Shown piece after piece: positions 2,440 to 7,101 of a stretch of DNA of 7,446 nt; position 1 is the stretch's first letter, and each line of letters opens with the position of its first letter. This DNA comes from DRGV01 sp018903055 [NCBI: bacterium] (GTDB lineage: Bacteria > UBP18 > UBA7526), in assembly GCA_018903055.1 (NCBI GenBank), contig JAHIPW010000104.1, positions 1 to 7,446 on the forward strand, in the 5' to 3' direction. The position numbers and the translations under genes are program-made. Under the pieces are notes generated by a model. It searched no databases. It had not been told where the DNA came from and saw only the letters and a list, made by a program, of their open reading frames with translations.

Positions 2440-4059
2440 ATGGTGAAAGCGGAATTGGAGCTGCGCCCAAAACTCATTCAGAAACTGAGGCTTGCTCCTC
2501 AGATACGCCAGACCTTAGCTCTTCTCCCCTTGTCCAATATTGAACTAGCCCACCTCATCCGGAAGGAGTTAGGGGAGAATCCCCTCTTAGAGGAAGGAGA
2601 AGAAAGCCCAACCCGCCTGCCGGCGAGGCAGGAGTTAGAAGAGATAGAGGCCCCTAAGGTAGAAGAAAAAGAGGCTACTCTCGATTGGGTAGAATACCTT
2701 GAGGACTACGAACGGGGCGCCTACCCTACTCAGGAAAGAAGAGAACCCTTCCCCTTAGAGAAGTTAGTAACCAGGAAGCCCACTCTATCAGAACACCTCC
2801 TCCGCCAGTTGAGACTTTCCACCCCGTTAGAGGCAGGCCCCGTTAGAGGCAGGTCGCCCCAAGGCGGCCGTAGCCGTGCCTCTCGCCTCGTCTTCGACGA
2901 GTCGAAGCGGGTCGGCAGGGCGGCCTCTAACGGGGCAGGTCGCCCCAAGGCGGCCGTAGCTCGCTCCGACGTATTTTCGGAGGGGCGGCCTCTAACGGGG
3001 TCCACATCAGATAGAATGGTTTTAAAGATCGGAGAACAGATCATCGGCAACTTAGATAGGAATGGCTATCTAAAAACCCCCTTGGGTGAGATAGCCTCCA
3101 CCCTTAAAATGAGAGAAAAAGAGGTTGCTAAGGTCTTAGGCTTAATCCAGACCTTTGACCCCATAGGAGTGGGAGCAAGGGATGTAAAGGAGTGTCTTTT
3201 AATCCAGATCAGACGCCGCACATTGAGAAAGCCTCTTGTCTATAGGATAATAAAGGAACATTTAGAAGATCTGGGAAAGAGAAGATATAGAGAGATTGCT
3301 AAAGCACTTAAAGTAAGAGTAGAAAAGGTTCAGGAGGCAGCAGACTTTATTGCTACCCTGGAGCCCAAGCCCGGCCGCTCTTTTGGAGAAGAGAGTGTCC
3401 AGGCAGTAATCCCCGATGTTACTGTTACTAAGGTGGACAAAGAATATGTCATTGTCTTGAATAATGAAGGACTCCCCAGATTACAGATCAGCCCCCTCTA
3501 CAAGAAGATGCTCGCTAAGGGAAGCAGGATAAATAAGGAAGAAGAGCAATATATAAAGGATAGATTAAATGCTGCTATCGGTCTAATAAAAGCCATAGAC
3601 CAGAGAGAGAAGACCATCTATAAGATAACGGAGAGTATCATCAAGGTGCAGGGAGATTTCCTGGAGAAAGGGATTGATTACTTAAAGCCTCTCACCTTAA
3701 AGAAGATTGCCCGAGATGTGGGAATGCATGAATCGACAGTAAGTCGCACCACGAGTAATAAATATATTCAGACCCCTCAAGGAGTATTTGAACTCAAATA
3801 CTTCTTTGCTTCCGGATTTGGCAAATCATCCGTCCGTCCGGCCGCCGAAGGCGGTCGGAAAGAGACTACCTCTTCACGAAGTATAAAAGAGGCCATCAGA
3901 GACCTGATAAACTCTGAGGATTCCCAAAAGCCCTTGAGCGATCAAAAAATAGCCGTCATCCTCACCATTAACTTAGGCATCAACATCGCCAGAAGAACAG
4001 TAGCCAAATATCGAGAAGAAATGAGGATACTGCCCTCTCATCAAAGAAAACGCTACTAA
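2440..4059 (+). CDS. rpoN: RNA polymerase sigma-54 factor
   Basis: RpoN directs core RNA polymerase to -24/-12 promoters and needs an AAA+ enhancer-binding activator to open them. Region I is at residues about 4-50 (LRPKLIQKLRLAPQIRQTL, ending ELGENPLLEE). An acidic linker follows. The core-binding region includes IIGNLDRNGYLKT and FDPIGVGARDVKECL. The helix-turn-helix is around 415-450 (ARDVGMHESTVSRTTSNKY), and the RpoN box ARRTVAKYRE is at 517-526. At 539 residues it is long for a family usually near 470-490. Most of the excess is a 61-residue insertion at about 128-188 encoded by a palindromic element. A shorter insertion lies near 464-475, encoded by a hairpin, and a 21-bp repeat lies near 58-65. 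All are in frame and every conserved block is intact, so the protein is probably functional. ATG at 2440 has AAGGA 7 nt upstream. Confidence 0.97.
   Translation: MVKAELELRPKLIQKLRLAPQIRQTLALLPLSNIELAHLIRKELGENPLLEEGEESPTRLPARQELEEIEAPKVEEKEATLDWVEYLEDYERGAYPTQERREPFPLEKLVTRKPTLSEHLLRQLRLSTPLEAGPVRGRSPQGGRSRASRLVFDESKRVGRAASNGAGRPKAAVARSDVFSEGRPLTGSTSDRMVLKIGEQIIGNLDRNGYLKTPLGEIASTLKMREKEVAKVLGLIQTFDPIGVGARDVKECLLIQIRRRTLRKPLVYRIIKEHLEDLGKRRYREIAKALKVRVEKVQEAADFIATLEPKPGRSFGEESVQAVIPDVTVTKVDKEYVIVLNNEGLPRLQISPLYKKMLAKGSRINKEEEQYIKDRLNAAIGLIKAIDQREKTIYKITESIIKVQGDFLEKGIDYLKPLTLKKIARDVGMHESTVSRTTSNKYIQTPQGVFELKYFFASGFGKSSVRPAAEGGRKETTSSRSIKEAIRDLINSEDSQKPLSDQKIAVILTINLGINIARRTVAKYREEMRILPSHQRKRY
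2612..2632 (+). repeat. 21-bp palindromic repeat, copy in rpoN
   Basis: The stem CCTGCC (2616-2621) / GGCAGG (2627-2632) flanks a GGCGA loop. The 21 bases are identical to the reverse complement of 5741-5761 in birA. Both copies have the same orientation relative to their gene but are read in different frames: here as part of T-R-L-P-A-R-Q-E in the variable linker of RpoN. Confidence 0.85.
2823..3000. mobile_element. MITE-like palindromic element inserted in frame in rpoN
   Basis: CCCGTTAGAGGC at the left end (2823-2834) is the inverse of GCCTCTAACGGG at the right end (2988-2999). TCCAC flanks both sides (2818-2822 and 3001-3005), a probable target duplication. Element plus duplication is 183 bp, exactly 61 codons; removing them restores a smooth LRLST-SDRMV junction and a 478-residue RpoN. 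Internally there are second copies of both ends (2838-2850 and 2923-2935) and a 27-bp direct repeat (2848-2874 and 2934-2960). There are also hairpins CTCGTC/GACGAG (2887-2901) and CTCCGA/TCGGAG (2964-2982). GC content is far above the surrounding gene. It carries no transposase. The exact ends are ambiguous by 1 nt because of a C/G run. Confidence 0.8.
3837..3859. repeat. GAA-triloop hairpin inside rpoN
   Basis: TCCGGCCGCC pairs with GGCGGTCGGA around a GAA loop, a 10-bp stem with one G-T pair. It encodes part of SSVRPAAEGGRK, which interrupts the normally short segment between YFFASG and the ETTSSRSIKEAI helix. It looks like a second small insertion and keeps the frame. Confidence 0.7.
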
Positions 4060-5016: not shown

Positions 5017-6060
5017 TTATAGAAGGGTTACATCGCCAGCCAGGATTCTTTCCTTTTTTCCTGCTTTTGTTTTTATTATTAGTGTTCCGTCGGAATCGAT
5101 GTCTATTGCTTTTCCTTCTATAATTCTTCTTCCAGAGACCGCTTTTACCCCCTTTCCTAATGTAGCGGAAATTTCTTTCCACTCCTTTAGAATAGGTGCA
5201 AAACCCCTCTTCTTAAAGAGAAGATAAAAATTCTCTATTTCTTCAAGCATTCTCTTGGTAAATTCTACCCTATCGATCTTGCGACCCAGTTCTTTTTCTA
5301 AAGAAGTAGCATCTTTTCGAAATTCTATAGGAAATTTTTTAACGTCGATATTTAAGTTTGCTCCAATCCCAATCACTACATAATTGACCGTATCCTGCTC
5401 CGCCTCCATCTCAGTCAATATTCCACATACCTTTTTAAAGACCCTAGACCCTTTCTTTCTCATTCGCCCATTCGCGCGAATGGTCCCAAGTTGAGACCGG
5501 ATTAGAATATCGTTTGGCCACTTTATAAAAGCATCCAGAGAATAAAGTTCTCTTATGGTCTTTGCTACTCCTAAGGCAGCGATGACCGTCATTCTCGGTG
5601 CCTGAGTGGGAAGGATTTTTGGTCTTAGGATTATGGAAAGCCATAATCCACCGAAAGGTGAAGACCATTCTCTTCCCAAGCGCCCCTTTCCTTTGGTCTG
5701 GACCTCAGCTATAACTATCGTTCCCTCTCTTGCCCCTTTCCCTGCCTCGCCGGCAGGCGGGCGTGCCAACTCGATGGCACAGTCATTCGTTGAGCCAATC
5801 TCTTTGAAGTAGTATATTCTTTTGCCCAGGATTTTAGTCTTTAAATCTCTTTTTATCTCATAAGGTAGCAGGAGGTCAGGAACCGAGACCAAGGAATAGC
5901 CCAATCTTTTTTGACTATTAATCTTATAGCCCGCTCCCTTTAGGGCCTGGATATGTTTCCAGATAGCAGTCCTCGAAATCCCCACTTTCTGACTCAATTC
6001 CTCCCCGGAAACATATTCTTTCTTCCGTTGGTAAAGAAGATTTAGAATTCTTTCTCTCAA
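5017..6060 (-). CDS. birA: Bifunctional biotin-protein ligase / biotin operon repressor
   Basis: BirA makes biotinyl-AMP and transfers biotin to a lysine of biotin-dependent carboxylases; versions with an N-terminal helix-turn-helix can also repress biotin genes. Residues 1-60 are that domain (SQKVGISRTAIWKHIQALK). The ligase core has GSTND (89-93), the biotinyl-AMP loop QTKGKGRLGREW (121-132; the usual GRGR reads GKGR), KWPNDIL (180-186), CGILTE (212-217) and GIGANLN (231-237). Residues about 295-347 are the SH3-like C-terminal domain. At 347 residues it is longer than the usual 320-330 because of two insertions: PPAGEAG (101-107) from a 21-bp repeat and about 20 residues at 188-208 from paired palindromes. 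The start is TTG, supported by AAGGA 6 nt upstream (6067-6071) and no ATG before the in-frame stop further up. Confidence 0.96.
   Translation of the reverse strand: MRERILNLLYQRKKEYVSGEELSQKVGISRTAIWKHIQALKGAGYKINSQKRLGYSLVSVPDLLLPYEIKRDLKTKILGKRIYYFKEIGSTNDCAIELARPPAGEAGKGAREGTIVIAEVQTKGKGRLGREWSSPFGGLWLSIILRPKILPTQAPRMTVIAALGVAKTIRELYSLDAFIKWPNDILIRSQLGTIRANGRMRKKGSRVFKKVCGILTEMEAEQDTVNYVVIGIGANLNIDVKKFPIEFRKDATSLEKELGRKIDRVEFTKRMLEEIENFYLLFKKRGFAPILKEWKEISATLGKGVKAVSGRRIIEGKAIDIDSDGTLIIKTKAGKKERILAGDVTLL
5468..5498. repeat. Pair of palindromes inside birA
   Basis: CCATTCGCGCGAATGG (5468-5483) is a perfect 16-bp palindrome. It overlaps a second hairpin, GGTCCCA/TGAGACC (5482-5498, 3-nt loop, one G-T pair). 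They encode the segment between KWPNDIL and KKVCGILTE, which in BirA relatives is usually a few residues (such as a short G/K-rich turn) but is about 20 longer here. Confidence 0.7.
5741..5761 (-). repeat. 21-bp palindromic repeat, copy in birA
   Basis: Reverse complement identical over all 21 bases to 2612-2632 in rpoN. Here it encodes the P-P-A-G-E-A-G insertion after the GSTND helix of BirA. A further hairpin, GTGCCA/TGGCAC (5763-5768 with 5775-5780), lies next to it. Confidence 0.85.
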
Positions 6061-6171: not shown

Positions 6172-7101
6172 TTATGTCACAATATCGAGACTAATGTCCA
6201 ATGCTTTGGCAGAATGGGTCAGAGCACCGATAGAGATTCTATTTACTCCAGTCTTAGCAATCTTCCCCACATTCTCTAAGGTTATTCCCCCTGATGCCTC
6301 AATAATCGGTGACCGGTAACCGGTGACCGGTGACCGGTGACATAATTCTATTGCTTTTCTTATGCTTTTAAGATTCATATTATCAAGCATTATAATATCT
6401 ACCACTGCCTTTAAGGCTTCTCTTACTTCTCTTAAATTCTTCGCCTCCACCTCAATTTTCATCCCTCTTGATATTCTCTTTCTTATCTTCTTCACTAAGT
6501 CCTGAAGCCTGAAGCCTGAAGCCTGAAGCCTGAAATGATTATCCTTAATCAATACTTGATCATACAGTCCTATCCGATGATTATACCCTCCCCCGCACCT
6601 CACAGCATATTTCTCTAAGTATCTCAAGCCCGGAGTGGTCTTCCTGGTATCAAAGATTTTAACTTTGTAGGGTCTTACCTTTTCTACGAATCGGTTGGTC
6701 AGGGTAGCAATTCCGGATAATTTCTGCAAGAAATTCAACGCCGTTCTTTCTGCAGTCAATATACTCCTGGCATCCCCAATAACTTCTGCAATCGCCTGCC
6801 CTTTCTTTACCTTTTCTCCCTCTTTCACTCTTGCTTTAAATACGACCCGCGACCCGCCCGCCGAAGGCGAGGTCTCGCCCATCCGGGGCGGACGACCTGC
6901 GACCTGCTGGAATGCTAACTCCGCCACCGGCAACCCAGCAATGACCCCTTTCTCTTTGGCCCGAATAATTCCTTTTGCATTTTTTTCTTTGGGAACGGTT
7001 AACAGAGTAGTAATGTCCCCCTTCCCAACATCCTCTTCCAATGCCCTTCTTACAACAGGCCTAATTTTCTTTAAATTTAATCCCCCAATTTTCTTTTTCA
7101 T
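6172..7101 (-). CDS. nadC: Nicotinate-nucleotide pyrophosphorylase (quinolinate phosphoribosyltransferase)
   Basis: NadC converts quinolinate and phosphoribosyl pyrophosphate to nicotinate mononucleotide, CO2 and pyrophosphate in de novo NAD synthesis; it is cytoplasmic and normally a dimer. Numbered from the ATG at 7101 (309 residues), family blocks are EEDVGKGDITT (22-32), ERTALNFLQ (118-126), DTRKTTPGLR (151-160), GGGYNHRIGLYD (170-181), LIKDNH (184-189), EVEA (217-220), MLDNM (238-242) and EASGGI (268-273). Substrate-binding R119, R153, K154, H175, R176, K186 and D240 appear present. The length exceeds the usual 275-290 because of three repeat-encoded insertions (about 68-85, 191-200 and 255-264). 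An ATG at 7122 would add 7 residues but lacks a ribosome binding site, whereas GGAGAG precedes 7101. nadC lies 111 nt upstream of birA, a common pairing. Confidence 0.96.
   Translation of the reverse strand: MKKKIGGLNLKKIRPVVRRALEEDVGKGDITTLLTVPKEKNAKGIIRAKEKGVIAGLPVAELAFQQVAGRPPRMGETSPSAGGSRVVFKARVKEGEKVKKGQAIAEVIGDARSILTAERTALNFLQKLSGIATLTNRFVEKVRPYKVKIFDTRKTTPGLRYLEKYAVRCGGGYNHRIGLYDQVLIKDNHFRLQASGFRLQDLVKKIRKRISRGMKIEVEAKNLREVREALKAVVDIIMLDNMNLKSIRKAIELCHRSPVTGYRSPIIEASGGITLENVGKIAKTGVNRISIGALTHSAKALDISLDIVT
6307..6341. repeat. 7-nt tandem array in nadC (CGGTGAC x5)
   Basis: Five contiguous heptamers, with the second reading CGGTAAC. On the coding strand they are translated as R-S-P-V-T-G-Y-R-S-P, a 7-residue peptide unit plus a partial repeat, placed just before the conserved EASGG strand of NadC. 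Confidence 0.9.
6501..6534. repeat. 7-nt tandem array in nadC (CCTGAAG x4.9)
   Basis: Four exact copies and a six-base partial copy. It encodes F-R-L-Q-A-S-G-F-R-L-Q right after the conserved LIKDNH motif. A 7-residue period results because 21 nt is three heptamers. Confidence 0.9.
6843..6906. repeat. Heptamers CGACCCG x2 and CGACCTG x2 flanking a palindromic segment in nadC
   Basis: CGACCCG occupies 6843-6849 and 6850-6856, and CGACCTG 6893-6899 and 6900-6906. The 36 nt between contain CGCC-GAA-GGCG (6859-6869) and GCGAG/CTCGC (6867-6878), and CCGCCC (6854-6859) pairs with GGGCGG (6886-6891). It encodes about 18 extra residues (from AGRPPRMGETS to AGGS) in the N-terminal domain of NadC. It looks like a palindromic element inserted into a heptamer array. 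Confidence 0.75.

Follow-up and report, generated by a model that had tools for sequence, protein, structure and literature searches.

How did 61 additional codons come to lie within an rpoN gene, which codes for sigma-54, and how could the reading frame remain open through them? The question is raised by a window of 7,446 nucleotides (the whole stretch of DNA analysed), which is contig C93 of the source genome G000, an assembly of 1.085 Mb in 191 contigs with an estimated completeness of 85%. A preliminary description of this window had proposed that a single MITE-like element with a target duplication entered the gene. Our analyses support two successive insertions of a non-autonomous MITE-like palindrome as the best explanation of the 183 extra bases as a whole (with a probability of about 0.85), and place the element in a family whose copies recur in frame within conserved genes.

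The rpoN gene and its insert

The features of the locus are listed below by position, with the basis of the assignment in brackets.

2440..4059, forward strand: rpoN (sigma-54), 539 codons with the insert (open reading frame; Pfam AID, CBD and DBD; TIGR02395)
2818..2821, no strand: TCCA, left copy of the 4-bp target duplication (sequence; single copy in the relative G002; 4-bp rule of the family)
2822..2837, forward strand: outer element, left part, CCCCGTTAGAGGCAGG
2834..2837, no strand: CAGG, left copy of the duplication around the inner element
2838..2935, forward strand: inner element, 98 bp, identical to a 68-bp copy from contig C5 but for 30 additional nt
2882..2911, forward strand: 30-nt GC-rich hairpin within the inner element (clean insertion relative to the C5 copy)
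2936..2939, no strand: CAGG, right copy of the inner duplication
2940..3000, forward strand: outer element, right part, ending in CCTCTAACGGGG; the outer element totals 77 bp
3001..3004, no strand: TCCA, right copy of the 4-bp target duplication (sequence; empty site in G002)

The product of the gene scores 410 bits against TIGR02395 (cut-off 277), and its frame runs unbroken through the insert to give 539 amino acids; the 478 residues left once 61 are subtracted are the length of several orthologues, as the preliminary description had anticipated. The insert spans 2822-3000 (179 bp) between the exact ends CCCCGTTAGAGG and CCTCTAACGGGG, and with the 4-bp duplication the net gain is 179+4 = 183 bases or 61 codons, a length divisible by three that leaves sigma-54 readable, as first claimed. 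The inverted termini and high internal GC described earlier also withstood measurement: 2821-2840 and 2982-3001 form terminal inverted repeats with 90% complementarity, and the GC content of 2821-3000 is 0.70 against 0.21-0.59 in the 180-bp windows without insert overlap. Relative to shuffled sequences, the folding z-score of the insert is -9.5 as RNA and -8.1 as DNA.

The rpoN gene of G002, a genome of the same family with 81% amino-acid identity, carries an uninterrupted site with one TCCAC and matching flanks, the empty site in a relative that the preliminary description had suggested seeking. The TCCAC reported on both sides of the insert is indeed found at 2818-2822 and again at 3001-3005, but a duplication of four bases, here TCCA, is what suits the family as a whole; the fifth base, C, could equally be the first base of the element.

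The one discrete event originally proposed gives way to two nested insertions plus a hairpin. The inner element is identical to the 68-bp copy on contig C5 apart from the 30-nt hairpin, and whole codons were gained at every step: 77+4 = 81 bases (27 codons) for the outer element, 98+4 = 102 (34 codons) for the inner one, and 30 for the hairpin.

Other GC-rich palindromic stretches were observed in the window. One of 21 bp (2612-2632, 7 codons) lies in rpoN and is missing from the G002 orthologue; palindrome-like stretches lie at 3826-3865 in rpoN, near residues 459-476 (pLDDT <50), at 5731-5780 in a birA-like gene and at 6841-6915 in a nadC-like gene, whose product matches QRPTase_N with 101 residues over 82 profile positions, about 19 extra residues.

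An element family with fixed ends and 4-bp duplications

The family is characterised by a pair of ends, CCCCGTTAGA/TCTAACGGGG, by a fold with covarying pairs that forms a three-way junction, and by duplications of 4 bp. The CCCCGTTAGA end occurs 103 times in the source genome of 1.085 Mb, against once for a reversed control pattern; it is found 23 to 51 times in the five other genomes of its bacterial family, 26 times in G006 and 75 times in G025, and is about as rare as the control in most of the 60 genomes scanned. Close inverted pairs of the ends (56-86 bp) were present in 19 of 386 genomes, from 12 families, the listed control counts being zero. In the source genome, 23 places were scored by a covariance model, and the elements mostly measure 62-104 bp.

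Identical 4-bp flanks surround 19 of the 37 exact-end pairs of the source genome (2000 shuffles: mean 3.3, maximum 9), all 19 fitting the pattern YNNR; no pair has identical flanks of 3, 5 or 6 bp, and eight have flanks identical over 2 bp (mean 4.5). The remaining 18 pairs lack an identical 4-bp flank, and several of them carry a recurring TTCA/CAGG pair. In the group termed 'f1 others', with the G025 copy (L242) left out, the duplication was found in 6/16. The empty site, the many other copies and an excess of 4-bp duplications (4-5 bp had been suggested) far above shuffles thus support the proposed MITE-like mobile element and its target duplication.

Several observations were made beside these counts. 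Different kinds of element in the source genome (L002, L003, L196, L203, L206) have in common two flanks that do not match each other, TTCA to the left of the element and CAGG or CAGA to its right, in place of a duplication. In the distant genome G025 the same ends number about 75 and mostly delimit elements of around 94 bp that are off the length rule described below (e.g. L280, L291). The end pair is carried by four IMG/VR viral contigs (L276, L277, L278, L279), two of which also have short hairpins (about 28 bp) that consist almost entirely of the ends. At L203 (209-317 and 344-405; G000:C142) a tRNA-Val gene has a CCCCGTTAGA end on one side and a TCTAACGGGG end on the other, and beside it a 62-bp copy interrupts a sequence read as a truncated tRNA D-arm.

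The main type of element folds as a three-way junction, with a 13-bp stem of terminal repeats and two hairpin arms. The alignment retained 29 of 40 exact-end places, those dropped being one near-duplicate and ten without the two-arm fold (lengths of the form 3n+2 in 5/10 of the latter). In these 29 distinct copies, pairing is retained in 96.7% of pair cells, and for 12 of 25 pairs both partners have changed; the covariation score of 0.345 exceeds the 0.121 of shuffles and drops to at most 0.076 once partners are slid by 1 to 3 columns. Ten of the 13 terminal pairs are invariant, partly due to the exact-end requirement of the search. The cells of variable pairs comprise 393 Watson-Crick, 18 G-T and 24 mismatched, and the scarcity of G-T is accounted for no worse by a palindrome maintained as DNA than by a functional RNA; we claim no role as RNA.

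Copies within conserved genes

In the source genome, copies lie in frame in the matched domains of rpoN (two), rodA, an ABC ATPase, a PD-(D/E)XK nuclease and moaA; RodA exceeds the cut-off of its equivalog model, and the ABC ATPase is nearest to SufC, under the SufC cut-off. Relatives have in-frame copies in murA and in the genes of a creatinase-fold peptidase and a YjeF protein, and in G004 a copy stands immediately ahead of a Mur-ligase C-terminal match. In G118 and G255, which belong to another family, the hosts of in-frame copies include pheT (B5 domain), panC, nadA, pyrD, the genes for an 8-oxoguanine glycosylase and a citrate-transporter-like protein, and others, among them a thymidylate-synthase-like protein below its NCBIfam cut-off. 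At equivalog level the hosts are RodA, MoaA, MurA, PheT, PanC, NadA and PyrD. The idea that landing in a gene such as rpoN is unusual thus finds no support for this element, which has repeatedly entered conserved genes in frame.

Not all copies are found in genes. Ten of the 24 copies in the source genome (the 23 places and the outer element of the window) have no convincing surrounding gene. Among the 19 loci examined in G118 and G255, 13 were classed as in-gene, three have no open frame, and three are ambiguous, terminal or off length. The in-gene proteins of L223 and L227 (source genome) and L254 (G001) have no Pfam match, their gene status resting on the open frame.

The 36 in-gene copies are read in phase 2 in 29 cases and in phase 1 in seven; only this split is informative, phase 0 being absent by construction as an open frame was required. 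Mean hydropathy per strand is -0.88 and -1.07 (hydrophilic) in phase 2, and -0.17 and 0.61 in phase 1.

The insert in rodA is common to the source genome and its congener G001, at the same site and in frame in both (74 and 68 bp). Between the two, the flanks have a dS of 0.30 and a dN/dS of 0.11, which indicates that rodA has been under purifying selection while carrying the insert, and the insert (26 codons) has a dN/dS of 0.67. A second shared copy lies near the C-terminus of a histone-deacetylase-like gene, with no synonymous change in the 23 codons of the insert and a dS of 0.42 in the flanks.

In the histone-deacetylase-like gene at L220 (G000:C143), a different 69-bp palindrome-like insert, also in frame, is missing from the G001 orthologue, and is possibly from a second frame-keeping palindrome family with other ends. 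The element may have fused two genes at L248 (G005:C104), where a Memo domain ends in a copy through which the frame continues into an AMMECR1 domain. At L225 (G000:C46), a copy follows directly on the ATG of a gene which we take to be cobS, and the element end together with the duplication supplies GTG as a new start.

Length rule and stop depletion

The length of the element is of the form 3n+2 in 70 of the 74 copies scoring at least 45 bits with covariance model R1, a model which may favour such lengths as 28 of the 29 copies it was built from are 3n+2, those 29 having been chosen by fold from an exact-end pattern search and not by length. By group, the proportion is 23/23 in the source genome, 30/31 in five relatives and 17/20 in G118, G255, G222 and G351, from two other families; the exceptions measure 76 bp (G004), 120 and 69 bp (G118) and 69 bp (G255). 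When only distinct lengths are counted, 8/11 follow the rule (P about 0.009 under equal classes). Below the cut lie a place of 123 bp in G005 (44.5 bits), which departs from the rule, and one of 71 bp in G002 (39.2 bits), which follows it; a hand count of all places at E <= 0.001 gave 24/32 in G118 and 15/20 in G255.

Added to the 4-bp duplication, such a length yields a gain divisible by three. TAG and TAA, held in the ends of the element, share one phase at 3n+2, so that two phases per strand are left open. Of 116 such usable frames in the 29 copies, 102 are free of stops, whereas 1000 shuffles preserving the fold and the outer ten bases averaged 72 and never exceeded 88 (another run had 500 shuffles). 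After thinning to 17, 9 and 7 representatives (<80, 70 and 60% identity), the number of shuffles in 1000 that attained the observed value rose to 1, 3 and 62, and 16/17, 9/9 and 7/7 representatives were 3n+2.

From these results we consider it rather probable that the DNA of the family has been shaped by selection for translation, its length locked to the duplication (3n+2 plus 4) and its four usable frames purged of stops, and that it spreads through housekeeping genes as a linker in several bacterial families. The alternative to be weighed most seriously is survivorship only, in which insertion is indiscriminate and the MITE may have any length, genes retaining only those copies that are stop-free and in frame, without a build compatible with coding in the lineage of the element. 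It is consistent with a stop depletion which is strongest in the in-gene copies of the source genome (30/32 frames, null mean 20.1) and weaker in six copies outside genes (19/24, null mean 14.2, reached by 31 of 1000 shuffles), and with elements of other types that bear the same ends and are off the length rule (3n+2 in 9/17 in the source genome and 6/21 in G025). Against it, some ten copies of the source genome without a convincing gene are also 3n+2, unless they descend from in-gene copies, and we regard this explanation as possible though doubtful.

Other origins of the insert appear much less credible. REP/REPIN-type elements moved by a Y1 (RAYT) transposase resemble the family in being short, abundant and palindromic. 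REPs are, however, mostly extragenic and not known to carry target duplications, and Y1 transposition is not known to leave any, whereas 4-bp target duplications are found here in place of the lack of duplication that marks REP/REPIN; this origin is very improbable. It is hardly to be believed that the palindrome is a removable insert, excised from the mRNA or skipped by the translating ribosome and thus absent from the protein: the strong fold would suit such a role, but neither a 3n+2 length nor stop-free frames would be needed, and the window gave no Rfam match at the gathering threshold, including the intron covariance models that would reveal a self-splicing intron or IStron. An assembly artefact at a repeat might be suspected from a repetitive insert in a fragmented assembly of 191 contigs, but is highly implausible given exact duplications at both nesting levels, an unbroken frame and many other duplicated copies across different contigs and genomes. 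Finally, the single open frame through rpoN would also be expected if the residues were an old conserved part of sigma-54, an idea rendered practically untenable by the empty site of G002, whose flanks match at 81% amino-acid identity, and by the presence of the same DNA elsewhere in the genome.

Consequences for sigma-54

The preliminary description had placed the insert between region I/linker and the core-binding domain. The Pfam CBD match restarts after the insert at profile position 27 of 185 and the conserved columns L116, L120 and Q123 precede it, which places the site within that domain; the DNA-binding domain is covered in full length by the Pfam DBD match. An AlphaFold model with the insert (28-sequence alignment; mean pLDDT 75.2, pTM 0.45) has residues 136-186 at pLDDT <50 between confident helices at 116-127 and 189-203.

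Between the source genome and G002, rpoN has an overall dN/dS of 0.15, and most of this divergence may predate the insertion. A search for a sigma-54 activator in the 85%-complete genome found none, the sole PF00158 match being an ATPase read as ClpC-like, and an rpoN match is absent from four of five family members (G001, G003, G004 and G005; 53, 93, 83 and 75% complete). Judging from this gene content, sigma-54 may be dispensable in the source organism, in which case its tolerance of the insert proves little.

Proposed mechanism

The favoured sequence of events, two insertions of the same kind of element, can be cast as follows. An enzyme acting in trans would recognise the CCCCGTTAGA ends, and its staggered cuts would leave the 4-bp YNNR duplication. 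With a 3n+2 length, element and duplication would add up to a multiple of three; the end stops would fall in one phase and two of three phases per strand could stay open. Insertion in a gene would then usually add a linker of at least 22 residues without a frame shift, presumably translated in the host protein, and in rpoN the linker would fall between the first helix and the remainder of the core-binding domain. Frame-neutral copies may have prevailed since they survive and multiply in gene-dense genomes. What has been observed are the empty site, the duplications, the dispersed copies, the covarying fold, the length rule, the stop depletion and the in-frame copies in conserved genes, one of them inherited through a species split while its gene remained constrained.

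At 20 loci of the source genome where ends are unpaired, inspection by eye of the first 60 residues of neighbouring open reading frames of at least 90 amino acids gave no recognised transposase, nor did that of frames of at least 120 amino acids in nine stretches of G255 and G118 with widely spaced ends; 20 stretches of G025 were checked for end positions only. The IS1380-type model PF13701, the only transposase family searched by model, had weak or partial matches in two of 14 genomes, with no element ends nearby. No autonomous relative with the same ends was seen in the draft genomes by this PF13701 search and the inspection of selected stretches.

Comparison with known systems

Rickettsia palindromic elements (RPE) and Wolbachia palindromic elements (WPE) are described as short palindromes found in frame in many unrelated conserved genes, where they add a peptide, and orthologues can share the insert (PMC10969869, PMC2229807, PMC3767692); the target duplication of RPE is marked '?' in a table of PMC2229807. 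The family described here likewise consists of palindromes in frame within unrelated conserved genes, with an insert common to orthologues. It differs from RPE/WPE in its defined CCCCGTTAGA ends, its empty site, its three-way junction and a 4-bp duplication to which the length rule is linked; it probably occurs in other bacteria, and it mostly measures 62-104 bp, against their 105-146 bp.

As in MITEs, there are terminal inverted repeats, a fixed 4-bp target duplication and dispersed copies without a transposase gene of their own. The bacterial MITEs Correia/NEMIS, RUP and ERIC similarly have inverted ends, target duplications, many copies, nesting and no gene of their own; according to review passages they are mostly intergenic, and some carry open frames and fuse in frame. 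Those passages mention no rule linking length to duplication. By description, not by sequence, the family resembles RPE/WPE in effect and a MITE in anatomy, and we do not file it as RPE.

The literature search returned papers on RPE/WPE, MITEs and REPs, mostly at the level of titles, and among these no description of the family or of a frame-length rule; the end sequences turned up only under titles that look unrelated. No family uniting defined ends, a three-way junction and a 4-bp duplication to which the length is tied appears in the passages and listings examined.

Implications

Transposons usually break the genes they enter, whereas this family seems to avoid breakage by arithmetic, its gain being a multiple of three and its fixed stops confined to one phase. 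If selection for translation did shape it, it would constitute a transposon adapted to coding DNA instead of one avoiding it. Through this family the idea developed from RPE would reach other bacteria, and its defined ends, duplications and empty sites allow insertions into genes to be dated and counted. Among conserved proteins (RodA, MurA, PheT, MoaA and RpoN) the copies amount to a naturally occurring set of linker insertions, which makes testable both the tolerance of proteins to inserted peptides and the role of mobile DNA as a source of new protein parts.
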